From positions 1,798,001 through 1,862,000 of the forward strand of contig NZ_CP132957.1 of assembly GCF_030863805.1 (NCBI RefSeq): DNA of 64,000 nucleotides, read 5' to 3'. This DNA is from Kineothrix sp. MB12-C1. GTDB taxonomy: Bacteria > Bacillota > Clostridia > Lachnospirales > Lachnospiraceae. A program made the translations under genes and the position numbers. The notes beneath the pieces were generated by a model. That model saw only the letters and a program-made list of their open reading frames with translations, had not been told where the DNA came from and did not search any database. The stretch's first letter is position 1. Each line of letters begins with the position of its first letter. Below, piece by piece: positions 35,143 through 51,075 of this stretch.

Positions 35143-35195
35143 AATAATACCGTGGCCGTAAATACAAGTAGCCATAAAGACAACTTGTGAACCGA
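35143..35195 (+). repeat. Left junction (attL) of the integrated element
   Basis: Read on the plus strand: host half-stem AATAATACCGTGGCCGT (35143-35159), 13 variable bases, then a 23-base arm (35173-35195) that matches the right end in inverted orientation at 18 of 23 positions. The whole 46-base stretch 35150-35195 aligns without gaps to the reverse complement of 51023-51068. CATAAA (35173-35178) also occurs as a direct copy at 51054-51059 and is a candidate crossover region. This is the layout expected for a large serine recombinase, whose site halves are inverted repeats. Confidence 0.65.
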
Positions 35196-35238
35196 GGGTC
35201 AGGGTAAACTGAATACGGAAAAAAGAATGATATAAAAG

Positions 35239-35274
35239 ACGAACAGACAGCAGGTAAAACTGCCTGTTCGTCTT
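35239..35274 (-). terminator. Terminator of the cargo operon
   Basis: GACGAACAG and CTGTTCGTC form the outer stem, with an inner CAG/CTG pair and an A/T-rich loop. On the minus strand the stem is followed by TTTTATATCATTCTTTTTT. It lies about 50 bases after the last cargo gene. Confidence 0.8.
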
Positions 35275-35322
35275 AACTATTATGCCACATTTTAGAATTC
35301 TTCTGTATTATTCAAAGATGTC

Positions 35323-35682
35323 TCATAGTCTATTGCCGCACTTTCCGCAAAAACGTGCGGCTGGAACGACGGGAGCGCCGCATTTGGAGCAGAATCTTAT
35401 CTGCGGGGCAGCTTGGTATGTGAGCGGCAAATCCTCATTCGGTGCATTATTGGACAGAAACAGCCAGTCGATGTCCTCGCCGTCCTCACATAAGCCGATG
35501 GCACCGGCGGGGGAAACCACATAAAAGCTGTCCTCGTCGATGGGGTCTTCACTGTCGCTTGTCTCAGCAAGCACCAGCAAGCCTTTTACATCGTATCTAT
35601 CATTGGATGTGGCAAAGCTCCAGCTTCCGCAGAATGCGGCGGCAAACTCCGCCGCCTCCAGCATGGTAATAAATTTATCCAT
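35323..35682 (-). CDS. Small protein with C-terminal zinc ribbon
   Basis: Soluble protein of 119 residues, last gene of the cargo operon. Residues 1-85 form an acidic alpha/beta-looking domain that I do not recognise. Residues 95-117 are a zinc ribbon, FCSKCGAPVVPAARFCGKCG, two CxxC pairs ten residues apart. This zinc ribbon type also appears in the next two genes, which argues for a shared function. AAGGAGG precedes the ATG, and the gene starts 14 bases after the 442-residue protein gene. Confidence 0.75.
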   Translation of the reverse strand: MDKFITMLEAAEFAAAFCGSWSFATSNDRYDVKGLLVLAETSDSEDPIDEDSFYVVSPAGAIGLCEDGEDIDWLFLSNNAPNEDLPLTYQAAPQIRFCSKCGAPVVPAARFCGKCGNRL

Positions 35683-35696
35683 TACGAAAAGCCTCC

Positions 35697-37025
35697 TTAT
35701 TTGAATAACAGGTTATTGCACCTCTTGCAGCGGTCATTTTGTATGGGGTTCATCATGGAGCAGACGTTGCAATAGATGATTCGGTCTTTGGATTTATCGT
35801 ATTTCTCGTATGTACCGAATCTTGGATGAAACCGCACCCTGTCGCCAACGGAGAGATAATCGTACATATGCCGTCCGCTGTCTTTTTCCACGATGATCTT
35901 TTTCTTGCCCGCGTCGGTGTTGATGATTGTGGTATATTCCGTATAGGTTCTGTAATTATCATCCTCGCCGCCCCTATGCTCGCTTTTTTCCTTGCTGTAC
36001 TTATTGACGACCACACCCTCCCACATGGGCTGCTTGGTCTTTCGCAACGCCAGCAGATTAACGACCAGCATGACAAGAGCAATGCCAACACCGATGACAA
36101 GGGATTCTCCAAACGGGAAATCGTCCATCAGCAGACCGGCGACGGGAAAGCCAATTAGCGGCACAAAAACCAATATCCACATACAGCCAATGGAGGATTT
36201 CTTATTTTTCTGCGCAGCGGCCAGTATCTCAGGGCAGTTATACCTGTCGGAAAAGCCGACCAGCCCCGTTCCGCCCTGTGAGCGCGCGGGAGCTGCCGCC
36301 CGGCTCGGCTCCATCGGCTGCGGCACTGCCGGACTCACTGCCGCTCCACAACCGATGCAAAATTCGGCCTCCTCCGGCAACTTTGCGCCGCAGGCCGTAC
36401 ACACGCCGGGGGCGCTGTCCTGTGTTTTTGCGCCGCAAGCCGAACAGAAAGCCGCACCCTCCGTCAGTTTGTTTCCACAGCCCCGACAAAACATATCCGT
36501 ATCACTCCTTACTTCAATTATTTGAGGCGCGGCGGGCTTCCTCGCCGCTAATTTCTTCTTTTTCCCGCGTCCGGCTGTGCGAATGACAAGCAACAGCAAA
36601 AGCAGATAACCGATAGGAGCGAGGATGTGGTAAATAATTGCCACTTCGCCCATCTCATCAAATTCGCACAGCATGGCAGGCTTGTTGACATAGGGGAAAA
36701 CATCAAGGTAACGGATGCGCTCGGAGCGCGTTTCGCCCTCATCCAAGGATGTCCACGCCTCGTCACTGCCATATATCACATAGCCGTGATACTCCTTGCC
36801 GTTTACCACAAACCAATAGCCCTTGGAAACGGTGCGGGAGCGGTTTTCCTGCGCGGTCGTATCATCCCGGCGGCTGTCATAGCTGTCCACCGTACCCATG
36901 ACGGAATCACCCCATATCGCCAGCGCCAGCGTGGAGAGGCTCAAATACATGGCAAACAGCAGCACGGCGTAAATCAGGATGAGGATGGGCAGGGGGATGT
37001 TTTTGCTCGTTTTCTTCTTTGCCAT
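35697..37025 (-). CDS. Membrane protein with DUF3592-like domain and three zinc ribbons
   Basis: Protein of 442 residues. TM1 at about 11-36; an extracytoplasmic segment (37-130) with WFVVNGKEYHGYVIYGS resembling DUF3592 proteins; TM2 at about 131-148; two tandem zinc ribbons (about 180-233: CRGCG...CSACG and CTACG...CIGCG); two further TM helices (about 288-330); a second DUF3592-like stretch; and a terminal zinc ribbon (CNVCSMMNPIQNDRCKRC, about 420-437). The ribbons should lie in the cytoplasm. Function unknown. Part of the cargo operon, between the 767-residue zinc-ribbon protein and the small zinc-ribbon protein. Confidence 0.78.
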   Translation of the reverse strand: MAKKKTSKNIPLPILILIYAVLLFAMYLSLSTLALAIWGDSVMGTVDSYDSRRDDTTAQENRSRTVSKGYWFVVNGKEYHGYVIYGSDEAWTSLDEGETRSERIRYLDVFPYVNKPAMLCEFDEMGEVAIIYHILAPIGYLLLLLLVIRTAGRGKKKKLAARKPAAPQIIEVRSDTDMFCRGCGNKLTEGAAFCSACGAKTQDSAPGVCTACGAKLPEEAEFCIGCGAAVSPAVPQPMEPSRAAAPARSQGGTGLVGFSDRYNCPEILAAAQKNKKSSIGCMWILVFVPLIGFPVAGLLMDDFPFGESLVIGVGIALVMLVVNLLALRKTKQPMWEGVVVNKYSKEKSEHRGGEDDNYRTYTEYTTIINTDAGKKKIIVEKDSGRHMYDYLSVGDRVRFHPRFGTYEKYDKSKDRIIYCNVCSMMNPIQNDRCKRCNNLLFK

Positions 37026-37065
37026 CGGGACGCTCCTTTCTTTGTCACATTTTTATTGCAGTTGA

Positions 37066-39369
37066 TTATTTCATGCGAATGACATCCCCAAGTGCTGAAT
37101 ATTGGTAGTCCTCTCCCTTTCGGAACTGAATAAAGTCAGCTCCGTACTGCCCTTGTGACTGGTCACAGGCAATCAGCTTAACGCCATTGGGGAAATCCTT
37201 ATAGTTTTCAATGACAAGAGTATGCTCTACCGGGTCAAACACATAGTTGCAGGTATAATACTTAGACTCATCAAGCTCCGTGTAGCGGGACATGATACCT
37301 ACATAAAAAGCGCAGGTTTTCTCGTCCAGTATTTTAATTGCTACGTCGAGATATGGATCATCATCTGGGTCTTGTGACCAGTAACCCTCAAACCATGCAG
37401 CGTCTATCCTCATGCCGCCCAGCGAGATCACCGTGGTCTTTTCCATCACCTTGAAGGTCTGTGTCAGCATCGACTCATCCTCAAACTCGTCGTCGCCCTT
37501 GTTCCATAGGCGAAGCTGGGTGGGGATGCCCGCTTGCATATACCCAAGGATAGTGGCATCTATGGCTGCACGCCCGTCCTTGTCCAGAACCGCCGTCCAA
37601 TTTTCGTCTACAAGAGCGTCGGGTCGGCAGATGTCAATGATACAGCCCGCGTATTTGCTCTTTTCCCCGTCGGAGATTTCCTCAACGATTTTAAACTCCA
37701 GCGGCGCGTTGAGCGCCTGCCGCAGCTCCGTGGCGTTCTTGCCATAAGCCTTGAGAGAGTCATAGCGAACCCGTTGTGTAACGTCCGAAAGCACAGGCTG
37801 GAGCATTTCGCCCAAACGGGCCATATACTGCTCAATGCAATACTCACGGGCGGCGTCTGTTTCGGGAAGAAGCCCCGTGGTGTAGGCGTGCAGTCCGGCC
37901 TCGTTGGTGGCTACAAGCTGCTCCTCCGGGTCGTCGTAGAAATAGCGGGAGCTGTAATTCTCCATAATACCGCGCAGAGCGGCGTTGAACTTCTCCGGGT
38001 CGTCGCCGCGTGTTTTGTACAGCCCCATGATTCTCGCGTACCATTCAGCCTCTGTCCACGGGTGTATCTCCTCGTTATAAGCGATGACCACATTAAACAG
38101 GGCGTCCTTATAGGTCTGGTCGGCCGCGACCATGAACTTGTTCAGAGAGTAGTCAAGGGCGATCACGCCCAGCATGGAGAGCTGCACCATGCCAGTGGTT
38201 ATCCTTTTGTAATCCAGCACTGCCACGCCCACATTGTAGGATAGTTTATACGCTTCCGCCGCCACTGTTTCGGCGGACTCGTTGCCTTTATATGCGTCGA
38301 TCATGGTGTCGCCCAGCGATAAGGCGGAGAGTCCCAGCAGCATATAACCACTTTTTTCCCAAACGCTTGCCATTTGTTTGTTGCCTACGCCCTGTTCCGC
38401 CAGTTCAAACACGTCGGCCGTCCAACCTAAGACATCATGAAGCAGCCCCGCTTCAGCATCACCAAGATTTGGAATGTTCAAGAGCTGTCCGTAGAACTCG
38501 CAGAGCAGACTGTTGCCCACCTCGCCGGGCTGCCCAGTCTGTTCATACTCTCGCAGGATCGCCATCGCAGTTTCATCGTCCAGGCGTCTGCTGCTGAATT
38601 TAGACAGCAGCGCATAGGGTGAACCGGCGTCCTTCAGTGTGACGGTGCAGTATTCCGAAAGGTGGTCGGTGGTGATGCTAACGGTGTTGTCGGTGGTGTT
38701 TACGGTGTAGTCCACAAGCTCCCATTCGCCTGTTTCAGGGTTGTAATACTCCGCCAGCACGGAACCTTCCTCATCAGCAGAGTCGGTTTCACTTTCGTCA
38801 TAGGGCAGAATGATCGTCAAAAGGCCGTCAAACTCGGTGCGTTCACCGGCTGAAATATCATAGGCTGTACGTGTGCCGCCTTCTATGCTGTTGCTGTCGG
38901 CTGACAACTCCTTTACCGACACCTTTTCTCCATCCATAGCGTTATATGGGCCGAAATCAACCATCACGCCGCTGTCGGTTGAAACTGCGGTTTGCCCCTC
39001 CTGCAAGGTAAAGCTGTCGCTTTTCTGTGCGGAAGGACGCTTAACCCCGCCGCCTACCATAAATCCCGGCCAGCCGTAGAGCGCCACCGCCGCGATCTGT
39101 ATTACGAGCAGGACGGACAACACAATGCACAGCGTATTGCGTCCGCCATTTTTCTTCGGTGCTGCGGCGTTTTTTCGTTTTGGCGACACAGCGGGTGGGG
39201 CGCTTTTTTGAGGCTGTGCCTCGGCTATCGGCTGCATAGGCGGCACAGGCTTCGGTTGTGCCACGGGAGCAGGATTCACAGGCGCGTCAAGCACCGCCGC
39301 ACCGCATTTGGCGCAGAAGCGAGCGCCGGTATGCAGTTCCTTGCCGCAATTTACACAGTATTTTCCCAT
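37066..39369 (-). CDS. Zinc-ribbon membrane-anchored protein with large extracellular region
   Basis: Protein of 767 residues. A zinc ribbon (CVNCGKELHTGARFCAKCG, residues 5-23) and a Pro-rich linker (29-70) are cytoplasmic; a TM helix follows at about 77-97; the remaining 670 residues are outside. The start of that region (about 115-250), with VMVDFGPYNAMDGEKVSVKEL and ITTDHLSEYCTVTL, looks like a ZU5-type beta sandwich. A mostly helical middle and a C-terminal beta domain (KIVEEISDGEKSKYAGC, YMQAGIPTQLRLW) follow. It is paralogous to the lipoprotein encoded two genes upstream, with the same domain order outside the membrane. Function unknown. Confidence 0.78.
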   Translation of the reverse strand: MGKYCVNCGKELHTGARFCAKCGAAVLDAPVNPAPVAQPKPVPPMQPIAEAQPQKSAPPAVSPKRKNAAAPKKNGGRNTLCIVLSVLLVIQIAAVALYGWPGFMVGGGVKRPSAQKSDSFTLQEGQTAVSTDSGVMVDFGPYNAMDGEKVSVKELSADSNSIEGGTRTAYDISAGERTEFDGLLTIILPYDESETDSADEEGSVLAEYYNPETGEWELVDYTVNTTDNTVSITTDHLSEYCTVTLKDAGSPYALLSKFSSRRLDDETAMAILREYEQTGQPGEVGNSLLCEFYGQLLNIPNLGDAEAGLLHDVLGWTADVFELAEQGVGNKQMASVWEKSGYMLLGLSALSLGDTMIDAYKGNESAETVAAEAYKLSYNVGVAVLDYKRITTGMVQLSMLGVIALDYSLNKFMVAADQTYKDALFNVVIAYNEEIHPWTEAEWYARIMGLYKTRGDDPEKFNAALRGIMENYSSRYFYDDPEEQLVATNEAGLHAYTTGLLPETDAAREYCIEQYMARLGEMLQPVLSDVTQRVRYDSLKAYGKNATELRQALNAPLEFKIVEEISDGEKSKYAGCIIDICRPDALVDENWTAVLDKDGRAAIDATILGYMQAGIPTQLRLWNKGDDEFEDESMLTQTFKVMEKTTVISLGGMRIDAAWFEGYWSQDPDDDPYLDVAIKILDEKTCAFYVGIMSRYTELDESKYYTCNYVFDPVEHTLVIENYKDFPNGVKLIACDQSQGQYGADFIQFRKGEDYQYSALGDVIRMK

Positions 39370-39381
39370 CTCTGCACCTCC

Positions 39382-40062
39382 TTATGGCCGCACCAGCGCC
39401 ACAAGCGCCGGTATCCCATCGGGCATATCCATTGTGCCAACGGCGTATTGTTTTCCGTTTTTCTCATAAAACTGCGTCAGGCGTATTGTTCCCGCGCCGG
39501 ACGCCCACAGACCGCCGTTTTCCCACTTGCCGCTGAATACGCCGTCCTCCATATCTGTTTCATCGAAGCTCTCGCCCTCATTGGCCCAAAAAATCTGATA
39601 CCAGTCGAGGGTGAGGCTCAGGCTCTCCGCCGTACCCGCAAGGGCGATGTTGAGAAACTCCATAGCGCCTGCGTCGTATTCGTCATTGGGGTCGTAAATG
39701 ATTATTGCTTTCCAGCCCCCGGTCAGCGGGTCGATATTGTCGATGATATTTGCGTCGGAGGGAACTCCGTCGTAAGCCACGTCCTCCGTATACCAGAGAA
39801 AGTCCTCCAAATCAGGGCGTTTCTCGATGGATAAGCTCGCGCCTGTTTCCTCCAGCGATGGAACACCTCCGCTTTCCGTGGTCGTGGGCGGGGTTTGTTC
39901 CTCCGGCGATGGTGTGGCGGGCGAAGTTTGCTCCGCCCTCGGCGCAGGAGATTTCTTGACTGCCGTTGAGCGCAAATTGGGTGGTATGGTGAAAACGCCG
40001 ACGACCAGCATAATTACATTGGCCGCAATAAGAGCGGCTATCAAGCCTTTCTTCAATTTCAT
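39382..40062 (-). CDS. Secreted or membrane-anchored protein, unknown
   Basis: Protein of 226 residues. Residues 5-26 are a signal anchor (GLIAALIAANVIMLVVGVF), 30-75 a Pro/Thr/Ser-rich linker, and 85-226 a compact beta-rich domain (LTGGWKAIIIYDPND, ENGGLWASGAGTIRLTQFYEKNGKQYAVGTMDMPDG) that resembles lipocalin-like or uncharacterised secreted domains; I cannot name it. CAAGGAGGG precedes the ATG. It starts 45 bases after the lipoprotein gene and ends 12 bases before the 767-residue protein gene. Confidence 0.75.
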   Translation of the reverse strand: MKLKKGLIAALIAANVIMLVVGVFTIPPNLRSTAVKKSPAPRAEQTSPATPSPEEQTPPTTTESGGVPSLEETGASLSIEKRPDLEDFLWYTEDVAYDGVPSDANIIDNIDPLTGGWKAIIIYDPNDEYDAGAMEFLNIALAGTAESLSLTLDWYQIFWANEGESFDETDMEDGVFSGKWENGGLWASGAGTIRLTQFYEKNGKQYAVGTMDMPDGIPALVALVRP

Positions 40063-40107
40063 CAGCCCTCCTTGATTCGCTTTATCTCGGACAGGGCAAG
40101 TCTTGCC

Positions 40108-42171
40108 CTATTCAATTTTGGTTCCCTCGCCGTAGACTGTTGAAGTTCTCCCTTCCTTAACATCTTCCACAGTATTGTCGCTTGAAAAACGAACCGCGCC
40201 TTCCTCGGAAATGAATCTAACATGAGTAGACAAAGACAAAGACTCACCTGGCGCTTCACAAGTCGCCGTAGCGGTGGACGGGTCATATTCATACGGCCCC
40301 GGCAAAATCAATAGAGCGGTGCCAAAATCTTTACCTTCCGGCATAAATACTAATTGCCCCTCGTAGTACATAAAAGTAAAGTTATAGGTAGCGGTTTCAC
40401 CTTCAGATGTAAATGTCGCAGAATAAGTGCCCAAAAGCTCCTCCAGCGGCAGTCCACCAAGTTTCACCTCCGTCACCGGCGCGGAGAGCTTAAAGCCAAC
40501 CGTCAGCTCCGGCTCGTCGCTTTCGGGGTCGCTGCCGGGTTTGAACAGTTGCAGTTCCTTGGGACAACCAGCCTGCACATAGCCAAGCAGGGTAAACTTG
40601 GTGGAAGCCCCGCCCGTGCCTTTCATCGCACCGATCCAGCTCTCCTTCACCGCGTTTTCGGAGAGTGGAGCGAAGCGCAGAGCGTAGCCGTCATATTGCG
40701 ACTTCTCTCCATCGGGAACGTCCTCCACGATGTTGAAGGTGATGGTTTGGTTAAAGAACGCTTTGACCTCGTTCAGTGCGGCCAGATACGCAGCCTCGGC
40801 CTTGCGCTGCATATACACGCTGACGGACTGCGTTACCGGGTAGAGGCGTTCATAGAGCTGTGCCTTATAACCGTCTACCAAGGTTTCGATCTCAGCTTGG
40901 GTCGGGTCGGGGATGGTAACAGAGCCTTTATCGCTCTTATCTTTAATATCCGTAACGACAGCGGCTTTTTCCATATCGCCCAGCGTCCAGAATACGCGGG
41001 CATAGCGGTCTATCTCCGCTTCTATGGCGGCCTTGGCGTCGGCTTCGTTTGGGTTGGTTTCGGCTATGTCGATCAGCACCTGCCGCCAATCCTTCAGGCT
41101 GCGGGCATTCCAGCCATTCCCCCCATCCAGTGTGCCGGAGAATTGGTCGTTGAAATAAACATAGATCTCGTCTATCTTATCCATCTTCATCGCCAAGCCC
41201 TGCTCAAACAGACTACTTATTGTGTAGTCAAAGATAAACAGACCGCTGGCGGCAAGTCCCCATGCGGCGGATTCGGCATAGGAGAGCGCCAGCATCGCCG
41301 TGTCCTTATACAAACCGAGAGTATCGGCGTCTGTCTTTTCTGTACTCAGCATCACCGCGCCGATCTTCACAGCAGCAGCCACCTTGCCCAGCTTGTTCAA
41401 TTTTTTATAGGCGGAATCAGCCAGCGCTGTGTCAAAGGTTGGGCTGCCGACGGAGGCCATGTTCAAGATCGTACCTGTGAGGTCAGTGGCAAAGCCCGTT
41501 TCTCCGGCTGCTCCGGCCACGCCGCCCAAAAATCCGTTATAGCCGGTGAGAAGGCGTGCCGCGAGGCCCGCCGCTTCCTCTCCGTCCGCGCCGCCGCCCG
41601 CTACATATTCTCGCAGCGCTTTCGTCGCCTGCTGCTGGTCGATGCCAGTAAAATCTGCATAAATGTCGGTGATATAGGCGCTGCGTTGACCCTCATTTCT
41701 GACATGGAACGCACCAAAGGTGGAGAGATGGTCGGTGTAGACGATAAGCTCATTGGCAGCTGTGTCCACCTCGAACAACACATCTTCCCACTCACCAGTG
41801 GTTTCGTTTCTGTACTTCGCACCCACGCATTTTGCCGGATCCTGCCCATCCTCGCAGTATGCGGTGTCATAGGGGATACGCAGGGTGATGAAGTCCGAAA
41901 GCTCGGACATTTCGCCCAACTTGAAGTCGTAGGCTTCTATCTTGTATCCTTCATCCTTGTTTTCTTCCACAGACTGCTTGGCTACGGTCAATTCCGCTTC
42001 ACCATCCAGGACATAATCGCCCAGATCTACGCTGACGCCGTTTGACAGGGTGACGCTGGTAGCCTCCGGTGAAAGCGTTGCCGCGTCGCTTTTGCTGCCA
42101 CCACCGCCGCATCCGGCAAGACCGGTCAAAAGCATCGCCGCCACGAGTAAAATGGATACTATCTTTTTCAT
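40108..42171 (-). CDS. Large lipoprotein paralogous to the zinc-ribbon membrane protein
   Basis: Lipoprotein of 687 residues. The signal ends in LLTGLAGCGGG with Cys21. The start at 42171 has GGGAGG nine bases before it; an open frame further upstream lacks such a site. The ZU5-like part (about 35-175; VSVDLGDYVLDGEAELTVAKQ, VYTDHLSTFGAFHV), the helical middle and the C-terminal part (FNIVEDVPDGEKSQYDGY, YVQAGCPKELQLF) align in order with the 767-residue protein. The two therefore arose by duplication and are anchored in different ways. Function unknown. Second gene of the cargo operon. Confidence 0.8.
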   Translation of the reverse strand: MKKIVSILLVAAMLLTGLAGCGGGGSKSDAATLSPEATSVTLSNGVSVDLGDYVLDGEAELTVAKQSVEENKDEGYKIEAYDFKLGEMSELSDFITLRIPYDTAYCEDGQDPAKCVGAKYRNETTGEWEDVLFEVDTAANELIVYTDHLSTFGAFHVRNEGQRSAYITDIYADFTGIDQQQATKALREYVAGGGADGEEAAGLAARLLTGYNGFLGGVAGAAGETGFATDLTGTILNMASVGSPTFDTALADSAYKKLNKLGKVAAAVKIGAVMLSTEKTDADTLGLYKDTAMLALSYAESAAWGLAASGLFIFDYTISSLFEQGLAMKMDKIDEIYVYFNDQFSGTLDGGNGWNARSLKDWRQVLIDIAETNPNEADAKAAIEAEIDRYARVFWTLGDMEKAAVVTDIKDKSDKGSVTIPDPTQAEIETLVDGYKAQLYERLYPVTQSVSVYMQRKAEAAYLAALNEVKAFFNQTITFNIVEDVPDGEKSQYDGYALRFAPLSENAVKESWIGAMKGTGGASTKFTLLGYVQAGCPKELQLFKPGSDPESDEPELTVGFKLSAPVTEVKLGGLPLEELLGTYSATFTSEGETATYNFTFMYYEGQLVFMPEGKDFGTALLILPGPYEYDPSTATATCEAPGESLSLSTHVRFISEEGAVRFSSDNTVEDVKEGRTSTVYGEGTKIE

Positions 42172-42190
42172 GTCAGATTCCTCCCTTTCA

Positions 42191-42700
42191 TTACCAATCA
42201 CTGATGTCTGCCCGTACGCCGGTTTCATGCCACAGCTTTTGTGCGGCATCCAGTACCGCCTGCTTTTGAGTCATTCCGTGCAGCAAATCTACCCGCATGG
42301 TCTGATCCTTGTCGCCAAAGATCAGGTACATCCGCTCCTTATCAATTTGAACGGTGCCCAGACGCACACCATGTACCCCGTCGAGACCCCAGCGATAGAT
42401 TTCGCTGCCGATGAGGATACCAAAGGTAGACACTACGGTTTCCTCTGCATCATTTTTCATTTGGCGGCCCGGCATGGAGATGAGAGCAGATGGCACCGCA
42501 AGGATGCGATTATCCCAAATGAGTGTTGCGTCATAGAGCAGACGGCTCTGCCTCACCAATAACAGGAGAGAAATAAGGCTGATAGCTCCAAAGGCGAAAA
42601 CCACTTCTAACATGAATTCCATGCCGAGCCACACCGCCAAACAAATATTGGCTGCGAACAATAAGGCATATCCATTGCGTCGTTTGCGGATTAATTTCAT
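42191..42700 (-). CDS. Two-TM membrane protein, first gene of the cargo operon
   Basis: Protein of 169 residues. Two adjacent hydrophobic segments (about 11-30 and 33-50) are followed by a soluble beta-rich domain (LIWDNRILAVPSALISMPGR, YLIFGDKDQTMRVDLLHG) of about 115 residues facing the cytoplasm, similar in look to PH-like or DUF2244-type membrane proteins; I cannot assign it. GGAGGAGGG stands before the ATG. It ends 19 bases before the lipoprotein gene. Confidence 0.72.
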   Translation of the reverse strand: MKLIRKRRNGYALLFAANICLAVWLGMEFMLEVVFAFGAISLISLLLLVRQSRLLYDATLIWDNRILAVPSALISMPGRQMKNDAEETVVSTFGILIGSEIYRWGLDGVHGVRLGTVQIDKERMYLIFGDKDQTMRVDLLHGMTQKQAVLDAAQKLWHETGVRADISDW

Positions 42701-42841: not shown

Positions 42842-44254
42842 TCATTCGCCGGTTTGGTTCTTCAGCAGGGTGCTGATGAGCTCCGCACGGCTTGAAACAT
42901 CGTATTTTGAAAAAATACTTCTTGCGTGTGTTTTAACGGTATTCTCACTGATGAACAAAGCCCCGGCAATTTCGCGGTTGGATTTTCCTGAAAGGATTAG
43001 CTGCAATACCTCTTGCTCCCGGACGGTCAGCGGATCAAGGGTTTTGACCTGCCGTACAATGTCCGTTTGCTGTGACTGGCTCATATTGTCATAGGCGGCA
43101 AGGTAAGCATGGCTTTTCAGCAATAGAACAAGCTGGTGGTTGAGGGGCGGCAGCATAACCAATGTAACACACACCACCGTCAGGGCAATCACCGCCACCT
43201 CCGCACTGGGAAGCCCAATGGATGTCACAGCCATTCCCAGGACGCCTCCGCAAAGGACGCCGAATACATTGGCGGAAAGACCGATGCCAAAGGTTTGTGC
43301 CGGGTTATCGCTATAATCCAGCATTTCTCCGAGGATGCTCCACCAAAACAGGTCGAAAATACCGCAGGCACCGAGCATCAGCGTATCCACAGTCAGATAG
43401 TCGGAGGTATTTCGCCCCAGCAGCATAAAGCTGATGAACGCTCCCATAATCATTGCCATCCCGATATACAAAATTCTGGAACGCTTTGCTTTCATAGGCA
43501 GGTTGCGCATAATGGCGAGCGCCACGATATAAGGCACGGCCCAATACCAGCTCACCAGCCCCGTCAGATGCTCAAAAGCGGGGTTGATGACCTGATACAT
43601 CAGTCCGGAATTAATTGTAATGATAAAGACAAAAAGACACAGCAATATTAGCTGGTTTTTAATGCCGCCATGCGTCTTATTTTTAAATGTTTTGTTCTGC
43701 TCATTCTCCTGCTCCAACGGCAGCATCCAAATGAAAACCATACCGATTACAAGACAAAGCACAGAGAGGCCAAGGCCGATAAAGGTTGACCTGTTCATGG
43801 TCACCACGTTGACTGCAATCATCAGCAAATTGGAATAAATCAGAACGTCGGCACAGGATTTAATGCGCTCGTTCTTGGGAGTAAAGGCCCTGAGAAAAAA
43901 TCCCCATGCCGCCACCGCGCAGCCGCTAAAGTATCCGCTGACAATCAGTCCGCCCATCCATAGAGTGGGGAGAGGAAAAAAGAAGGGGACAGTGGCGGCT
44001 AAGCATAAGCCCATGCCGCCGAGCATCATGCTTTTGGCGGCCGTCTGTGACTTGACAAACAGGCCGCAGGTAAAAAGCCCCGCGAAATGCGCGATAATTG
44101 CAGTCAGTATGTAACGGCCGGCGTCTGTTCCACGCAGATCCAGCAGGCTGTACAGCACCTGCCCCTCGAACAAGAAGGAGAGCAGATACGCAAAAGAAAA
44201 TGAAAACGCCGCAATGGAAAGCCTGCGGGCATTTAAAGTCTTAAATCTGTTCAT
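42842..44254 (-). CDS. LuxR-type transcriptional regulator with 12-TM membrane domain
   Basis: Protein of 470 residues. Residues 1-390 carry about twelve hydrophobic segments arranged like an MFS transporter. The C-terminus (about 405-465) is a LuxR helix-turn-helix: LTVREQEVLQLILSGKSNREIAGALFISENTVKTHARSIFSKYDVSSRAELI. Such one-component membrane regulators are common in Eggerthella-like bacteria and some Clostridia, where the membrane part is thought to sense a ligand. Its start overlaps the stop of the HTH gene (ATGA). It lies just upstream of the cargo operon on the same strand and is the best candidate for its regulator. Confidence 0.85.
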   Translation of the reverse strand: MNRFKTLNARRLSIAAFSFSFAYLLSFLFEGQVLYSLLDLRGTDAGRYILTAIIAHFAGLFTCGLFVKSQTAAKSMMLGGMGLCLAATVPFFFPLPTLWMGGLIVSGYFSGCAVAAWGFFLRAFTPKNERIKSCADVLIYSNLLMIAVNVVTMNRSTFIGLGLSVLCLVIGMVFIWMLPLEQENEQNKTFKNKTHGGIKNQLILLCLFVFIITINSGLMYQVINPAFEHLTGLVSWYWAVPYIVALAIMRNLPMKAKRSRILYIGMAMIMGAFISFMLLGRNTSDYLTVDTLMLGACGIFDLFWWSILGEMLDYSDNPAQTFGIGLSANVFGVLCGGVLGMAVTSIGLPSAEVAVIALTVVCVTLVMLPPLNHQLVLLLKSHAYLAAYDNMSQSQQTDIVRQVKTLDPLTVREQEVLQLILSGKSNREIAGALFISENTVKTHARSIFSKYDVSSRAELISTLLKNQTGE

Positions 44255-44529
44255 TTTATAACCTCCCGCTCATCGGAGGCTCCGCCCTTTTTAACCCATT
44301 CGTCAATGTCGGCAGTTTTGAAACGCCAGAGCTTTCCCACCTTGGATGCGGGCATACCGCGCTGCTCAATCCATCGCATAATGGTATGGCGCTTCACGCC
44401 AAGATAATCGCAGACCTCTTGCAGGGATATCCATCTGTTTTGAATGTTGTTTTCTGGCACGGCAAGCACCTCGCTTTCTTTCAAAGGCATATGAGTAATC
44501 ATGTGATAATGATACGCCATATAAGGCAT
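44251..44529 (-). CDS. Excisionase-like helix-turn-helix protein
   Basis: Small DNA-binding protein with a MerR/Xis-type motif (WISLQEVCDYLGVKRHTIMRWIEQRGMPASKVGKLWRFKTADIDEWV, residues about 32-76). The family includes recombination directionality factors and regulators. The given start is the outermost ATG (92 residues). A GTG at 44460, eight bases after GAGG, would give 69 residues, nearer the family's usual length, and may be the real start. It overlaps the LuxR-type gene by four bases and is translated with it. Confidence 0.75.
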   Translation of the reverse strand: MPYMAYHYHMITHMPLKESEVLAVPENNIQNRWISLQEVCDYLGVKRHTIMRWIEQRGMPASKVGKLWRFKTADIDEWVKKGGASDEREVIK

Positions 44530-44619: not shown

Positions 44620-45708
44620 TTATTCTACCTTAATTTTCTCTAGCATTTCTTCGCCCGTAATTTTCCCGTCAAGATAATTGCTCCGAGCCTGCCGTGCCAG
44701 CTTTGCCCACCGGGCATACTCCTCCGAGGACATGTCCTTGCCGCTAAACTCTTCCGGCAACTTACCGTCCGCACGGTAACGGCGAGAGTACACCTTGTTG
44801 TACTCGGTCAGGAAAGCGAGCAAATAATCGTTTCCCTGCATACCCTGATCATAAAATAGCTTTGCGCCAACCTGCTTGCAGGTGCGATCACCTTTATATG
44901 GCCGATCACAGAAATCCCGTTTACGCTTATCGGTCAACACAAAATAGCGGCTACACAGTTTGCAACGCTTAACAAACCGTGCATTTTTCAGCATCTCGGT
45001 AAACTCAAAATAGAGCATCTCATCCAAATATTCAAACAGATAGTATGGCATCAGACTGACGCCTTCGCCATCCTGGTGCATGATTTCCAAAAGCTCATCT
45101 GTTTCCCGCAGATTCCAATCATGGATATCCTTAAGCGTATCCATATCCACCTTGCCATTTTTCTTCGGCAGCAGCTCGTATTTTATTTTCACAACAGCCT
45201 CGGCAAAGCCGGGGTACTCCGATACAAATTCACAAAGCCGCTGGGACATTTCCTTGTCCGAGTGGCTTTCTCTATCTAAACAGGTGGTAACCGCTTTCGT
45301 GCATACCTCCTGCAGTTCTAAAATGTGTTCCAATTCCTCTATACAGGTTGTAAGAGGTCTAAGCAAAGCGGCCTCAAATTCATCTTTGGCATAGATGGAT
45401 TCTTTCAGAATGTTGTTCAGCAAGCCCACCAAGAAGAAATAGACATAGCGGTGCTTGCCCGCAATAGTTTCGGCAACATCAAATATTTTGCTTCTGATTG
45501 TCTGATAGTTCGCCATAGTGAGCGGAATGGACTTCGTTTCAGTGAGCAGTGTTGTGTATTCTTCGAAATCCATTTCTACAAATTCAATTAGCCCATTGCC
45601 AATAAACTTTTGCGCGTACTGAGTCACCTTGTCCGGATAGGCGTAAGCCATGGAGTAAATCAGCTTGTCACTTCCCTCGAAAATTTTAATCAGTGGGTAC
45701 TGTTCCAT
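44620..45708 (-). CDS. DUF6076-like protein with zinc-finger region
   Basis: Protein of about 362 residues from the ATG at 45708, which has AGAGGAG six bases before it. The frame is open further to 45876, but no ribosome binding site supports an earlier start. The N-terminal two thirds are helical with no motif I know. Near the C-terminus lies CKLCSRYFVLTDKRKRDFCDR followed by a further Cys (TCKQ), a likely zinc site, and a helical end. Proteins of this kind (DUF6076) are often found in Firmicutes mobile elements. It is divergent from the RepA-like gene. Function unknown. Confidence 0.68.
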   Translation of the reverse strand: MEQYPLIKIFEGSDKLIYSMAYAYPDKVTQYAQKFIGNGLIEFVEMDFEEYTTLLTETKSIPLTMANYQTIRSKIFDVAETIAGKHRYVYFFLVGLLNNILKESIYAKDEFEAALLRPLTTCIEELEHILELQEVCTKAVTTCLDRESHSDKEMSQRLCEFVSEYPGFAEAVVKIKYELLPKKNGKVDMDTLKDIHDWNLRETDELLEIMHQDGEGVSLMPYYLFEYLDEMLYFEFTEMLKNARFVKRCKLCSRYFVLTDKRKRDFCDRPYKGDRTCKQVGAKLFYDQGMQGNDYLLAFLTEYNKVYSRRYRADGKLPEEFSGKDMSSEEYARWAKLARQARSNYLDGKITGEEMLEKIKVE

Positions 45709-45876
45709 AGGCACTCCTCTCGCAAATAATCGATTTTCCTCAAACCAGCGTTTCTGCGATTCGCTGTGTATTTCTGTTTCTGGATATAGGACAATGGTAT
45801 CACAAGGAATAGAAGTTTTCAACATTCGATTTATTGCATATCTCAAAGCAAATTGAATTAAGAGGAGGAATCGCAA

Positions 45877-46899
45877 ATGTCAAAAAAGTTAGAAACCATG
45901 GATGCGGAAACCTTGATGACCACACCCATGGAGCCGCTGAAATTTATTGTCAGCGGTCTGCTACCCGAAGGACTGCATGTGCTTGCAGGCTCACCAAAAA
46001 TCGGCAAGAGCTGGTTAGCCCTGTGGATCTGCTTGCAGGTGGCAAAGGGTGAAAAGGTATGGGAATTTGAAACGCTAAAAAGCGAAGTCCTGTATCTCTG
46101 CTTAGAGGACAGCTTCGCCCGTATCCAAAGCAGGCTGTTTGAAATTACCGATGAAGCACCGGCGACACTTCACTTTGCCATTATGAGCGATACTATCGGC
46201 CATGGTCTGGAAAACCAAATTGAAAGCTTTATCAAAGAGCATCCCGACATAGGATTGATTGTGATTGACACCCTGCAAAAGGTTCGCAAAACCGTTTCCG
46301 CAAATGTCAATCCCTATGCCTCCGATTATGATGACATCAGCGCACTGAAGCAAATTGCGGACCGTCACCATCTTGCCATCCTGCTCATACATCATCTTCG
46401 AAAAACAAGTGATGCTGATCCGCTCAATATGATTTCGGGAACCAGCGGCATTGCAGGCGGTGCTGATACAAACTTTGTACTGCAAAAAGACAAGCGAACG
46501 GAAAATACCGCAACGCTTATTTGCACCGGCAGAGATATCGAGGGGCGGGAACTGTTCTTGGAGTTCAACAAAAATAATTTTGTATGGGAGCTGCTGGAAC
46601 CGATTGAAATGGAGCAGCTGATCATACCGGATGAAATTTTTCTTCTCTGTGATTTTATAAAATCGGCAGGTGGCTTCACTGGTACGGCAACCGAGCTGAT
46701 AGAAAAATTGAATCTGGATTGTAGCCCCGCAATTCTGAAGAAGAGAATCATTAAGCACATGGAGCATCTGGGCAGAAATGGCATTCATTATTCCGAGAAC
46801 AGGACTTTTGAGCGACGAGAGTTCACTCTCTGCTATGACGGTAGCATCACGCCCCCCAAATTTACCGTCTTTGCTGTCCGCACTGTCACAGAACAGTAA
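45877..46899 (+). CDS. RepA-like RecA-fold ATPase of the mobile element
   Basis: Protein of 340 residues of the AAA_25 / RSF1010 RepA-like helicase group. Walker A is GSPKIGKS (38-45), Walker B LIVIDTLQKV near 125-135, and LLIHHLRKTSDADP near 165-180 resembles the hexameric helicase core. The C-terminal 80 residues look like a winged-helix domain. AAGAGGAGG lies before the ATG. It starts the plus-strand backbone of the element and may support replication of the excised circle, which would help the element's stability during transfer. Confidence 0.82.
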   Translation: MSKKLETMDAETLMTTPMEPLKFIVSGLLPEGLHVLAGSPKIGKSWLALWICLQVAKGEKVWEFETLKSEVLYLCLEDSFARIQSRLFEITDEAPATLHFAIMSDTIGHGLENQIESFIKEHPDIGLIVIDTLQKVRKTVSANVNPYASDYDDISALKQIADRHHLAILLIHHLRKTSDADPLNMISGTSGIAGGADTNFVLQKDKRTENTATLICTGRDIEGRELFLEFNKNNFVWELLEPIEMEQLIIPDEIFLLCDFIKSAGGFTGTATELIEKLNLDCSPAILKKRIIKHMEHLGRNGIHYSENRTFERREFTLCYDGSITPPKFTVFAVRTVTEQ

Positions 46900-47189
46900 T
46901 CTTGCCACCGTTGCCCCCTGTTCGCCCCTGTGTGGCGAGATTGACGGTGGAATGGCATAACTCCACCTAACCCGAATAAACCCGCAAATTGAGCCACCGT
47001 TGCGAGCAGCTTTGGATTTGCACTTATTTTAGAGAAAACGTAGGAGTTTCGGCTGCGATTTCTCACCCATTGGGTGAGGCGAGCAGAGCGTCGGGCTATA
47101 CGCCCGCCACAGCTCGCTCGGGGCAGAAGCCCCGGACCCCACTTTATAGAGCGCCGTTGGCGCAATGAAAATCGGAAGGAGAAACGCCA
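46900..47189 (+). other. Candidate origin of transfer (oriT)
   Basis: The 290 bases between the ATPase gene and mobC hold no gene but many inverted repeats: CTCACCC/GGGTGAG (near 47067-47083), CGGGC/GCCCG around TATAC, GGGGC/GCCCC around AGAA, and GCGCC/GGCGC around GTT. Two direct copies of GCCACCGTTGC lie near 46906 and 46988. Position directly upstream of mobC and the relaxase gene is where oriT lies in most mobilizable elements. The nick site itself is not recognised. Confidence 0.5.
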
Positions 47190-47495
47190 TTGAAGAAAAA
47201 GCCCTTTGCCTTTCGCATCAGCGAAAGCACCTATAAAACCCTGAAACAAAAATCTAAGCGTGGCAAGGTTACCATGACAGAATTTTTAGAACGAGCCATA
47301 ACAGATAAAGAAATCGTTGTGGTAGACGGGATTCAGGAGCTCATCAGCGAGCTGAAAGCCATCGGCAGAAACCTCAATCAGCTTACCGCCCTTGCCAACA
47401 TGGGGAAAATTGATGCCGTTTACCTTGCAGAAACCAAGGCGAAGCTAAGCGGTATTTATGAAAAGCTGTCCGCACTTTGCGAGGTGAACCGGTAA
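47190..47495 (+). CDS. mobC: MobC-like relaxosome accessory protein
   Basis: Protein of 101 residues. The N-terminal ribbon-helix-helix region (FAFRISESTYKTLKQKSKRGKVTMTEFLERAI) binds DNA, and the C-terminal LKAIGRNLNQLTALANMGKID is typical of MobC/MobS proteins, which help the relaxase open oriT. The start is a TTG at 47190 with AAGGAG eight bases before it. The stop overlaps the relaxase ATG by one base (TAATG). Confidence 0.88.
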   Translation: MKKKPFAFRISESTYKTLKQKSKRGKVTMTEFLERAITDKEIVVVDGIQELISELKAIGRNLNQLTALANMGKIDAVYLAETKAKLSGIYEKLSALCEVNR

Positions 47496-48877
47496 TGGCA
47501 ACGGTTAACTTCATCCCCTGTAAAAAGCAAAATGCCTTCTCCATGCGAAATGAAATTGAATATATTTTGCAGGATTTCAAGGTGTGCATCGAACCGGAGA
47601 AATTCAATTGTGACCACACCGTCAACTACCAAACCTATTCCGCCGATGCGGATAAGACCGGCTGCATCCGCTTAATCTCCGGCAAGGACTGCTGTCCCGA
47701 AACAGCCTTCCAAGAATTTATGGCAACCAAAAACAGCTTTAAAAAGACTGATAAAACGATGTTCTATCACTACGACCAAGCCTTTAAGGATGGCGAAACC
47801 ATCTCACCCAAAACCGCACATGAGATAGCCATAAAATTTGCGGAGGATAATTACCCCGATTATGAGGTAGTCATCGCCACCCATGTGGATAACGAGCATC
47901 TACACTCCCACTTTATTATCAACTCGGTCAGCTTTAAAACAGGAAAGAAATTACATCAAGGTCCCAAAACGTTATTCAAGCTCCGGTCATATTCAGACCA
48001 AATATGTAAGCAATATGGGCTGACTACCCTTGAGCCATACACCGGCGGTAAATCGAAAAGCCTCGCCTCTCGGGAATACCGTGCCGCCGCCAAGGGGCAG
48101 AGTTGGAAGTTTTCATTGATGAACGCGATTGATATTGCAATGAAAATCAGCGGCACAAAAGCTGATTTTATTAAGAATATGGAGCGACAAGGCTACGCGG
48201 TAAAATGGACAGATACCAGAAAATATATTACCTACACCTGCCCAAACACCATGTCCTGCTGGGATATCAAGCTCCATGACAACCGCTATTTGAAGGAGAT
48301 GATGGAGCGTGAATTTGAGCTTAGAAGAATTGAAGCAGCGGAACGCAGGCTCTCAGCCAGTCGAACCGATTCCCCAGCAGCCATCGCAGAACAGCCCGTC
48401 TTGTCCTCTGACACAGGAGAAGCTAGACAATCTGTTCTACAATCAAGGGCTGATTTGGGATGGGATAACCCAGCTGCAGGAGCAGGTAAAAGTTCTCCGG
48501 CAGCAGAACCGCGGCCTCAAAACACAGCTGGACAATCTACCTGCGGGGTCGGAGCTGGAGCAAATCAGCAAGAGCCTGCTGCAGATACAGCAGACGTTGT
48601 CACAGGCTGGGAAACAGAAAGAGAAGTCTTTTTCTCTGCCGAAGATGCAGCTGCCGCACCTGACATGGACGCCACTGTGGATAGTCATTCCCTTAATCTT
48701 GCTGGCATTGGCGGCAGTGTGGTTCAGCTGGGACGCGCTTTGGAACGGCTGGACAACCCTATTTCCCTAAATGACGCCACCACTAAACCTCCGCAGCATA
48801 CCGGCAGGAAGAAGAAATTAGCGGTCGGTCAAAAGGAAGATGACCACAGCGGACACGATTTTGAAATGAAGATGTAA
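47495..48877 (+). CDS. mobA: Relaxase (MobA/VirD2-type mobilization nuclease)
   Basis: DNA-nicking and transfer protein of 460 residues. The metal-binding motif HVDNEHLHSH (His130, 135, 137, 139) is the HxDxxHxH signature of MOB-P-type relaxases; Tyr23 in NEIEYILQ is a candidate nucleophile. The nuclease domain covers about 1-260. Residues from about 270 on are encoded by DNA that also encodes the nested protein at 48309-48770 and have a skewed, low-complexity composition (Ala, Ser, Gln, Gly). The last 35 residues, after the nested gene (NDATTKPPQHTGRKKK...QKEDDHSG), look like the usual end of this family, so the full frame is probably real. The ATG overlaps the mobC stop. Confidence 0.88.
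   Translation: MATVNFIPCKKQNAFSMRNEIEYILQDFKVCIEPEKFNCDHTVNYQTYSADADKTGCIRLISGKDCCPETAFQEFMATKNSFKKTDKTMFYHYDQAFKDGETISPKTAHEIAIKFAEDNYPDYEVVIATHVDNEHLHSHFIINSVSFKTGKKLHQGPKTLFKLRSYSDQICKQYGLTTLEPYTGGKSKSLASREYRAAAKGQSWKFSLMNAIDIAMKISGTKADFIKNMERQGYAVKWTDTRKYITYTCPNTMSCWDIKLHDNRYLKEMMEREFELRRIEAAERRLSASRTDSPAAIAEQPVLSSDTGEARQSVLQSRADLGWDNPAAGAGKSSPAAEPRPQNTAGQSTCGVGAGANQQEPAADTADVVTGWETEREVFFSAEDAAAAPDMDATVDSHSLNLAGIGGSVVQLGRALERLDNPISLNDATTKPPQHTGRKKKLAVGQKEDDHSGHDFEMKM
48309..48770 (+). CDS. MobB-like membrane protein nested out of frame in the relaxase gene
   Basis: Reading frame of 153 residues inside the relaxase gene in another frame, beginning with GTG at 48309 (a GGAG lies six bases upstream in ATGGAGC). 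The product is far more protein-like than chance: a Pro/Gln-rich start, a coiled-coil region (about 35-105; LIWDGITQLQEQVKVLRQQNRGLKTQLDN), then one clear TM helix (about 120-142; LWIVIPLILLALAAVWFSW). RSF1010 mobB is likewise encoded out of frame within mobA and has a membrane segment. The similarity here is in arrangement and topology; homology is not shown. Confidence 0.65.
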   Translation: MNLSLEELKQRNAGSQPVEPIPQQPSQNSPSCPLTQEKLDNLFYNQGLIWDGITQLQEQVKVLRQQNRGLKTQLDNLPAGSELEQISKSLLQIQQTLSQAGKQKEKSFSLPKMQLPHLTWTPLWIVIPLILLALAAVWFSWDALWNGWTTLFP

Positions 48878-48889
48878 AGGAGATGCGAC

Positions 48890-49174
48890 ATGACAAACGA
48901 GAAATTAGCAGCACAGCATTATCTAAAAACCAATATCCTCGGCGCCTATGAAACCGTCGATATCATTTGGCAAAGCGACAGCGAGGGTACCTCTCACCGC
49001 ACCTTTGCAGACAGCTTTGTTTACACAGACGAAACCTCCCATACCATTGAACGGGATATGGTGGTGGAGGACAGAGTGTTCCGGGTGCATTCTGTGTTTC
49101 CCGTAAAAAGCGCCTCTACCCCCACAAAAAAGATGCTTTCAGTGATTGAAAACGACCTCGAAAAAGCGCTTTAA
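48890..49174 (+). CDS. TnpW-like transposon-encoded protein
   Basis: Protein of 94 residues with a C-terminal stretch (RVFRVHSVFPVKSASTPTKKMLSVIENDLEKAL) like the short TnpW proteins that lie just before the recombinase gene in Tn4451-type and related elements. Their function is not known. AAAGGAG lies before the ATG. It is 12 bases after the relaxase gene and 92 bases before the recombinase start. Confidence 0.65.
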   Translation: MTNEKLAAQHYLKTNILGAYETVDIIWQSDSEGTSHRTFADSFVYTDETSHTIERDMVVEDRVFRVHSVFPVKSASTPTKKMLSVIENDLEKAL

Positions 49175-49266
49175 AACGCTTGATTTCAGTAGACTTGTGG
49201 AACCTGTTGCGGTATGCTTGGGTTACCGTATTCAGTTTGCCACAACAAGAAGGAGGATTTTTAACG

Positions 49267-50967
49267 ATGGCAAACAACGAAAAATATACCATACTCTACG
49301 GCAGACTGAGCCAAGAAGATGACCGGGAGGGTGAGAGCAACAGCATCCAAAATCAGCGATTGATTCTCACCAGGTACGCAGAAGAAAAGGGCTTCGAGAA
49401 CATTCGTTTTTTGTTCGATGACGGTTTCAGCGGAACAAACTTCAACCGTCCTTCGTGGAATGAGATCATGGAGCTGATTGAAAGCGGACAGGTGGAAACC
49501 TTGATTGTCAAGGATATGAGCCGACTCGGCAGGGATTATCTGCAAACAGGCTTTCTCATGGAGCATACCTTCCCCAACCACAATGTCCGGTTCATTGCCA
49601 TCAATGATGCGGTGGACACGCTCTACGGCGATAACGACTTTGCTCCGTTCCGAAACTTATTTAACGATTTTTATGCAAAAGACTGCAGCAAAAAAATTCG
49701 GTCGGTAAAGAAAGCACAGGCTGAACGCGGGGAACGGGTTGGGACAAGGCCGCCCTATGGGTACAAAAAAGACGAGAGCAATCCCAAACAGATTGTTCCC
49801 GATCCGGAAGCCGCCGAAGTGGTCAAGCACATTTTCAAGCTGTGCGCCGAGGGCAGAGGCCCCAAGCAAATCGCAAGGCAGCTCACCGAGGAACAGGTGG
49901 TAAATCCAAGCAACTACTATTTTAATCAGACCGGAGTGACTCTGACAAATTTGGATACCACCAGACCCTACCGGTGGAGAGATAACTCCATTGTCAATAT
50001 CTTAAACGATGAAACCTATCTCGGACACACAGTTAGCATGAAGCATACAACCGCATCTTACAAAAACAAGAAGCAAATTATCCGTCCAGAATCCGAATGG
50101 TTAAGGTTTGAAAACACCCATGAGAGCATCATCGATCAAGAAATTTGGGATATCGCCCATGCGGTTCGAGAGCACAAAAAGCGTCCGAGAAAAAACATGG
50201 AGAACCCTAACCCTTACTCGGGACTTGTATTCTGCGCCGATTGCGGAAAGCCTTTGGTGCTACACCGTGCCCACACCATGGACGAGAGTAAAAACAATTT
50301 CGCCTGCTCCACCTACAAGCAGTATGGCAAGGAATCCTGCTCCGCCCATTACATCCGGGAAAGCCAGCTTGCGGCGGTGATTTTGGATGACCTGAAGCGT
50401 GTCACTCACTTTGCAAGGCAGGACGAAGTGCTGTTTGCGGAGTGCATCAACCGCAAAAACACTGCTGATACGAGAAAAGAAATTACCGCGCTGCAAAAAG
50501 AGCTGGAGCTTATGCGGAAAAGGGATTTAGAGCTTACCACACTATTTAAAAGACTGTACGAGGATAATGTGCTGGGGCGTATACCGGATGAGCATTACCG
50601 AACGCTGTCCAACGAGTATGCCGCAGAACAGAAAGCCTTACGCGAACGCATGCCAAAGGCTGAAGCCAGAATGGAAAAGCTCAAGAACTCCCTTACCAGC
50701 GTGGACAGGTTTATTGAAAAAGCAAAGAAATACACCAACCTTACCGAACTGACACCAGAGCTGCTTCGAATGTTCATTGCAAAAGTAGTGGTGGGTGAAA
50801 AGGCTAAGAAATACTCCCGAACTGCTCCGCAGGATATTTGGATTCACTACCGTGACATTGGAATGCTGAACGATGTCAAAGAGGAATTTGATATTCCATC
50901 CATGGAAGTTTTCTACGGAATGGATGATGAAATGATGTTTGATGATGAGCTGCCAGCCGCAATTTAA
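49267..50967 (+). CDS. Large serine recombinase, TnpX type
   Basis: Site-specific recombinase of 566 residues that integrates and excises the element. The N-terminal resolvase domain has the catalytic serine in YGRLSQED (Ser15), plus DGFSGTNFNRP and LIVKDMSRLGRDYLQTG. A Recombinase domain follows (about 165-290; GTRPPYGYKKDE, VVKHIFKLCAEGRGPKQIARQL), then a zinc ribbon (CADCGKPLVLH...CSTYKQYGKESCSAH, about 322-370), a coiled coil (about 400-480) and a DUF4368-like end. Start at 49267 with AAGGAGG ten bases before it; the longer open frame upstream lacks one. It lies at the right end of the element, as is usual for this family. Confidence 0.92.
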   Translation: MANNEKYTILYGRLSQEDDREGESNSIQNQRLILTRYAEEKGFENIRFLFDDGFSGTNFNRPSWNEIMELIESGQVETLIVKDMSRLGRDYLQTGFLMEHTFPNHNVRFIAINDAVDTLYGDNDFAPFRNLFNDFYAKDCSKKIRSVKKAQAERGERVGTRPPYGYKKDESNPKQIVPDPEAAEVVKHIFKLCAEGRGPKQIARQLTEEQVVNPSNYYFNQTGVTLTNLDTTRPYRWRDNSIVNILNDETYLGHTVSMKHTTASYKNKKQIIRPESEWLRFENTHESIIDQEIWDIAHAVREHKKRPRKNMENPNPYSGLVFCADCGKPLVLHRAHTMDESKNNFACSTYKQYGKESCSAHYIRESQLAAVILDDLKRVTHFARQDEVLFAECINRKNTADTRKEITALQKELELMRKRDLELTTLFKRLYEDNVLGRIPDEHYRTLSNEYAAEQKALRERMPKAEARMEKLKNSLTSVDRFIEKAKKYTNLTELTPELLRMFIAKVVVGEKAKKYSRTAPQDIWIHYRDIGMLNDVKEEFDIPSMEVFYGMDDEMMFDDELPAAI

Positions 50968-50977
50968 GGCATGGCAA

Positions 50978-51005
50978 AAGGCGGACAGCCGAAACTGTCC
51001 GCCTT
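50978..51005 (+). terminator. Terminator after the recombinase gene
   Basis: AAGGCGGACAG (50978-50988) pairs with CTGTCCGCCTT (50995-51005) around CCGAAA; eleven perfect base pairs, ten bases past the stop codon. The tail (ATACC) lacks a long T run, but the stem is strong. Confidence 0.8.
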
Positions 51006-51022
51006 ATACCCCACATTTTTAG

Positions 51023-51075
51023 TCGGTTCATAAAGTATCCTTATGAACACTCGCATAAACGGCCACGGTATTATT
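51023..51075 (-). repeat. Right junction (attR) of the integrated element
   Basis: Read on the minus strand: host half-stem AATAATACCGTGGCCGT (51075-51059), 13 variable bases, then a 23-base arm (51045-51023) matching the left-end arm at 35173-35195 in 18 of 23 positions. The half-stem covers the sortase stop codon (51073-51071). A small hairpin, GTTCATAA/TTATGAAC (51026-51048), lies within the arm. With the left half-stem and its run of seven A residues, the pieces form a complete intrinsic terminator for the sortase gene. Confidence 0.65.

Follow-up and report, generated by a model that had tools for sequence, protein, structure and literature searches.

The split terminator behind the sortase gene

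The DNA analysed here, a 64,000-nucleotide stretch of the Kineothrix sp. MB12-C1 genome (contig NZ_CP132957.1; hereafter the window), contains a class B sortase gene with a mobile element of about 15.9 kb behind it. The element is flanked by the two halves of a predicted intrinsic terminator. The features at the two junctions are as follows.

35160..51058 (no strand): integrated element of ~15.9 kb bounded by the two AA cores, an integrative mobilizable element that encodes a large serine recombinase with DUF4368 (junction comparison against 13 relatives)
35091..35159 (+): 5′ portion of the dispersed repeat of three hairpins, the last of which is the interrupted terminator (genome repeat search)
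35143..35159 (+): B half-site, i.e. the left arm of the interrupted terminator hairpin and left half of attB (exact inverted match to 51059–51075)
35160..35161 (+): crossover dinucleotide AA at attL (common to both junctions; ends of relatives compared)
35162..35207 (+): P′ half-site at the left element end, forming an inverted repeat with the right end (27/46; inverted-repeat alignment)
50976..51007 (no strand): terminator-like hairpin just inside the right end, at the same place in 14/14 elements (fold scan)
51011..51056 (+): P half-site of the element end (inverted-repeat alignment)
51057..51058 (+): crossover dinucleotide AA at attR (junctions compared with relatives)
51059..51075 (+): B′ half-site, i.e. 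the right arm of the interrupted terminator, overlapping the sortase stop codon (exact inverted match)
51071..51895 (−): class B sortase whose terminator is split (TIGR03064 above cut-off)

The sequence 35143–35159 (AATAATACCGTGGCCGT) is the exact reverse complement of 51059–51075, and the inverted match of the junction arms is in fact 18 bp long, starting at 35142. The only other exact non-overlapping pair of inverted 17-mers in the window (4080/4109) is unrelated, and a 17-mer scan allowing up to 3 mismatches found 2 places, compared with 0.13 expected; the pairing of the arms is not due to chance. When joined, the arms form a 17-bp stem with a TAAA loop (−28.1 kcal/mol, computed fold), which overlaps the sortase stop codon (51071–51073) and, read on the minus strand, continues into seven T residues (35144–35138). 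Exact match and fold agree with the first-pass annotation, which had described a stem running from the sortase stop codon into seven T. Its description of the element ends as inverted repeats was reproduced upon re-counting (ungapped, 18/23 matches at 35173–35195 and 27/46 overall), and the domains and junctions support its proposal that an element of ~15.9 kb carrying a large serine recombinase went into the terminator loop. The boundary it gave (35173/51059) had to be revised. The direct repeat common to both junctions is TAAA (35159–35162 and 51056–51059), and comparison with the element ends of relatives placed the crossover at AA (35160–35161/51057–51058), about 12 nt away on the left.

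The left terminator half forms the end of an ~80-bp repeat of three hairpins, present in about 70 copies in the genome, often in tandem with a period of 77–80; the same repeat was seen at 35091–35159 and in 37 other stretches of the genome (L009–L045). The complete copies examined have a CTTG-type loop and none has TAAA. A match to the sortase was found in 3 of the 16 genomes of the genus, i.e. the window's own, G001 (79%) and G003 (36%). An element-free sortase locus with the joined terminator had been anticipated, but in the sister genome G001 the gene that lies left of the element directly adjoins the sortase gene, with neither element nor terminator-like repeat between them (as judged by eye). 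Since both are absent there, the repeat probably arrived behind the sortase gene first, and the element was inserted into its third hairpin afterwards. The dispersed repeat may possibly serve as a portable terminator. A search of the plasmid collection with the sortase flank gave no match. An origin of the repeat from a Y1 transposase was considered and rejected, as the repeat lies within ~1.5 kb of none of the four Y1 genes in the genome. These four Y1-type transposase genes (L169–L172), which we take to be IS200-like from their size, form two near-identical pairs of ~742 bp.

Insertion sites of related elements

The comparison covered 24 different elements, with recombinases 62–100% identical to that of the window. 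Recombinases with 76–100% identity were found on 16 contigs. A sample of 397 genomes of the window's own family yielded four close recombinases (the window's, two in G289 and one in G033), the other three being already within the 16-contig set. The 62–65% group consisted of six recombinases from 391 genomes sampled from the class and one from a viral contig. Right junctions were read directly, and left junctions were located by comparison of elements, by a same-genome sequence search (match in 9 of the 14 records, one of them merely a chance-level 17-mer) or by an inverted-repeat scan. Both ends were located for 14 of the 24 elements, with both on one contig in 10 cases; the search for the left end of a 95% relative, G289:C2, found just the end of the other element. 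One contig, L100, belongs to a Faecalibacterium-titled metagenome-assembled genome and encodes a recombinase identical to the window's over 386 aa, at another site, the right flank of which lacks a T run; it represents either a recent transfer or a misbinned contig.

All 14 two-ended elements are located in the loops of different terminator-like hairpins, with the core no more than 1 nt from the loop centre. The core dinucleotide is AA in 13 of them and TA in one. The arms vary from site to site but pair with each other at any one site: the mean fold energy of a site's own arms is −23.0 kcal/mol, compared with −9.2 for the 182 swapped pairings (best swap −20.2), and none of 20000 permutations over the 14 sites reached the observed energy sum. 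A site's own arm was the best in its row in 12/14 cases and the best in its column in 12/14. With the 10 contig-linked sites alone, the values were −23.3 and −7.7, the own arm was the best in row and column in 10/10 cases, and again 0/20000 permutations reached the observed sum. A stop codon faces the site within 65 nt in 12/14 cases, and TTTT is present in 12/14 right arms. Close relatives thus integrate at many unrelated sites (14 different), i.e. targeting is of the multi-site kind. The occurrence of related elements in 13 other hairpins points to an integrase for which terminators are the landing sites; the comparison with close recombinase relatives, in which 14/14 two-ended elements fit, bears out the earlier suggestion that terminator loops could be a general rule. 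A recombinase-less relic of 3.7 kb (G416:C12, L131), which is not counted among the 14 and has both ends on one contig, lies in an imperfect terminator-like hairpin (−13.0).

Element-free counterparts were found at two loci. In G695, the element splits a hairpin between two genes which, from the look of their translations, we take to encode a glycosyltransferase (GT) and a rubrerythrin. The GT gene is present in four other genomes of this genus (G659, G760, G531 and G743). In G659 it is followed by an intact terminator, with the rubrerythrin gene behind and without the element, and in G760 the end of this GT gene is occupied by a different element, which is oppositely oriented. Two related elements (L144/L129 and L124) are therefore found in opposite orientations at the end of one GT gene in congeners. 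In Clostridium sporosphaeroides, the element splits the terminator of a gene that is presumably rex-like. Three congeners were compared at this locus: in G804 (rex 96%) the element is absent and the terminator, with closely similar arms, is intact, and the hairpins downstream of rex in G417 and G805 are of unrelated sequence. The empty site of L128 was also sought in its genus, in which its own genome alone was represented. Together with the joined arms and the sites of the relatives, the two intact terminators (G659 and G804) support the proposal in the first-pass annotation that a near-symmetric terminator served as attB.

A terminator-like hairpin of the element's own lies just inside its right end, 41–54 nt from the end, in 14/14 elements (−18.4 to −24.4). 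Left-end hairpins with an energy of −15 or below were found in 5/14 elements, and one of the misses (L092) was scanned over 25 nt only.

Target recognition and related systems

On the evidence of the aligned sequences, it is very probable that this is an integrative mobilizable element whose DUF4368 recombinase joins attP to an intrinsic-terminator attB at the AA in the loop. The attP of the circular form would recombine with the chromosomal attB at this dinucleotide, this attB being the duplex DNA of an intrinsic terminator, often a bidirectional one, with the predicted layout A-tract, GC-rich arm, T-AA-A loop, complementary GC-rich arm and T-tract. The crossover would occur in the loop, on the dyad axis. 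The two opposed T-tracts, 13–18 nt from the core, would act as motifs for the zinc-ribbon domain, and the twofold symmetry of the terminator would admit a recombinase dimer with little demand on the arm sequence. After integration, the inner right-end hairpin may restore termination. The choice of terminators would be adaptive for the element, because coding sequence is avoided and the element carries its own hairpin inside the right end; such a strategy would offer landing sites in many genomes and leave coding sequence intact. In the attB of the Listeria integrase (A118 family), T is favoured at positions 17–19, within the zinc-ribbon motif contacted by the zinc-ribbon domain (PMC3783163), so the two opposed T-tracts of a terminator plausibly mimic attB. 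Unlike the many-site targeting described here, the Listeria integrase has a specific attB, and hairpin targeting is not mentioned in the available part of the same paper.

These sites raise the question of how the recombinase picks self-complementary arms without conserved sequence. One answer, which we put forward tentatively and consider somewhat less probable than its converse, is that it recognises the dyad or hairpin itself, i.e. self-complementary arms around an AA loop, with the arm sequence largely free. Recognition might proceed through the twofold symmetry of the duplex, through a transiently extruded cruciform, or through the terminator hairpin or paused polymerase. If this is true, the protein would be a structure-guided serine integrase for which intrinsic terminators form a universal, host-independent class of attB, and a biological meaning would attach to the A-rich/AA/T-rich motif published for the multi-targeting clade.

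It is unlikely that targeting depends on sequence only, with the recombinase reading the A-tract, AA and T-tract and hairpins following since terminators offer such spacing. Such targeting would agree with the motif of Cp36, which is A-rich at the 5′ side, with an AA core and T-rich at the 3′ side (main text of PMC10083194), and the same A-rich/AA/T-rich pattern is visible in the 28 half-sites aligned at the core: the T frequency is 0.68–0.93 at 13–18 nt, A or T stands beside the core, and positions 2–11 are GC-rich and weakly conserved. However, the motif does not produce hairpins at the rate observed (14/14). The outer-tract motif alone occurs at 85 other places in 595 kb, and only 3/85 are as hairpin-like as the weakest real site (−14.7), whereas all 10 real sites above the same threshold are hairpins. 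When GC-rich arms were also required, hairpins made up 92/2500, 28/351, 25/240 and 23/127 of the places (4–18%) in four filter sets, against a background of 1.05 Mb of partly overlapping stretches and with the weakest real site as the hairpin cut-off; the real sites that pass these sets (13, 11, 11 and 10, respectively) are all hairpins. Hairpins are therefore in excess of what the A-tract/AA/T-tract sequence alone gives. The core also tracks the dyad (standard deviation 0.48 nt) more closely than the A or T tract (3.2 and 3.8 nt), and site L127 fits the tract motif poorly (−19.9), yet is a centred hairpin.

Selection after random integration, by which insertions between convergent genes survive and others are lost, appears very improbable. 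Although 9/14 sites are flanked by convergent open reading frames (ORFs) whose stops both fall within ~150 nt (according to raw ORF calls), selection for intergenic positions does not bring the crossover to 1 nt or less from the loop centre in 14/14 cases, and much intergenic DNA is not terminator. Still less credible is a dispersed repeat, i.e. a hotspot resembling repetitive extragenic palindromic (REP) sequences, as the general target: the window's site is indeed the third hairpin of the ~70-copy repeat, but the arms of the other 13 sites are unrelated in sequence and the CTTG-type loop of the complete copies examined differs from TAAA, and this candidate was rejected. The view that the 17-bp flanks are terminal repeats of the element and not host DNA, as exact inverted repeats at its edges might imply, was discarded as virtually untenable, since the arms differ at all 14 sites despite the relatedness of the elements and closely similar arms are retained in element-free congeners at two loci.

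Several observations weigh against terminator-loop integration as set out above. The terminators at all sites are predicted from sequence. The window's own empty site was not seen, and G001, the sole congener locus compared, has no terminator; downstream of the GT gene, G531 and G743 differ and have no recognisable orthologous terminator. No left end was found for 10/24 elements, and among these the right flanks of L100, L103 and L119 lack TTTT within ~25 nt (the other 7/10 have it). Four of the 14 end pairs are linked solely through the same genome, the L093/L105 pair was chosen among three left ends by complementarity, and the cores were positioned by comparing element ends, in part (L127, L093) by eye. 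The motif threshold applied to the background excludes four of the 14 real sites. Finally, among 14 relatives at ~40–45% identity, nine yielded no acceptable ends and one (G028C19) yielded ends without a hairpin.

Four of these more distant relatives lie in hairpins (−32.1, −17.5, −34.5 and a weak −10.5). For L078, L058 and L055, which are among the nine, upstream sequence covered 2.8–6.6 kb only, and G206C1, also without accepted ends, gave an end match of score 17. In a tree of 54 rows, with target labels assigned from earlier junction readings, the midpoint root divides the terminator-site recombinases into groups of 14 and 3 rows; L102, which also has a terminator site, was left out (<300 aa). 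A sister clade of 15 rows, labelled “maff2” here, forms one branch (support 100/100). Twelve of its 15 members share a gene-internal right flank (AGGGCATGAAGCAGCT-like) and so fall outside the terminator rule; the flanks of L066, L071 and L076 differ. Single-gene targeting (L057, L059–L064, L067, L069, L074, L075 and L077) is thus observed beside multi-site targeting.

Mobile elements that use palindromes or terminators are known from other classes. IS1397 and other insertion sequences reportedly insert in REP palindromes; the present element resembles IS1397 in targeting palindromic intergenic repeats, but those insertion sequences use DDE transposases and one repeat family per genome, whereas the present targets are hairpins of many different sequences and the enzyme is a serine recombinase. 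Group IIC introns and Tn7 at glmS use terminators as a harmless landing site, by reverse splicing and TnsD-guided transposition, respectively, in contrast to the attP × attB recombination proposed here. With Tn4451/Tn4453 the element shares a TnpX-like recombinase, a mobilization gene and a 2-bp crossover. The crossover dinucleotide of Tn4451 is GA, which differs from the AA and TA cores found in this study. The relaxase is likewise of another type, MobA/VirD2 as opposed to the MobV reported for Tn4451 (main text of PMC5704250).

The closest counterpart is the multi-targeting DUF4368 clade (Cp36, Pc01 and Enc9) published together with the Cp36 motif by Durrant et al. 2022 (PMC10083194), with which the present recombinases share DUF4368, relaxed multi-site targeting and the A-rich/AA core/T-rich motif. 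In contrast to the clade as described in the main text of that paper, the targets here have self-complementary arms between the tracts and are terminator-like hairpins; the words terminator, hairpin, stem-loop, inverted repeat and palindrom have 0 occurrences in that main text. Likewise, “terminator” is absent from the main texts of a review of integrative mobilizable elements (PMC5704250), a paper on C. difficile elements (PMC3158075) and a 2026 bacterial application paper (PMC13137831). Terminator targeting by serine recombinases was not recognised among the titles and abstract openings listed, a search that did not extend to subscription papers and supplements; we regard terminator-loop targeting by this recombinase group as provisionally new. 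Recombinases of the clade are genome-writing tools described as relaxed or random, and if the terminator loop is their natural attB, target choice in bacteria would become predictable.

Anatomy of the element

The genes identified between the two junctions are listed below.

35323..42700 (−): cargo block, six further ORFs (ORF list; profile scan of five, 35323–35682 left out)
42842..44254 (−): protein with a LuxR-type DNA-binding C-terminus, cargo (PF00196)
44251..44529 (−): excisionase-family helix-turn-helix protein (PF12728; TIGR01764 above cut-off)
44620..45876 (−): DUF6076 protein (PF19553)
45877..46899 (+): AAA_25 ATPase (PF13481)
47190..47495 (+): NikA/MobC-like mobilization protein (PF21983, E 4e-14)
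47477..48877 (+): MobA/VirD2-type relaxase (PF03432, E 3e-34; MobP-type models below cut-off only)
48890..49174 (+): 94-aa ORF without a family match (ORF list, profile scan)
49267..50967 (+): large serine recombinase of 566 aa with resolvase, recombinase, zinc ribbon and DUF4368 domains (Pfam, scanned from TTG 49180; PDB)

The recombinase contains PF00239, PF07508 and PF13408 above the cut-offs, the domain set of large serine recombinases, as well as DUF4368 (PF14287, E 3e-18), and its nearest solved sequence in a PDB search is TnpX (2mhc, E 2.4e-39). The element thus has its own integrase and relaxase, and it was classified as an integrative mobilizable element because the recombinase, relaxase, NikA/MobC-like protein, ATPase, excisionase-family helix-turn-helix protein and cargo constitute such an anatomy. 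Type IV secretion families were not detected among the scanned element proteins (35323–35682 left out of the scan), and an Rfam scan of window positions 34000–52000 gave no match. In the cargo block, one ORF contains a zinc ribbon above cut-off and another has a lipoprotein-like start (by eye). Two large cargo proteins, encoded at 37066–39369 and 40108–42249, resemble each other by eye.

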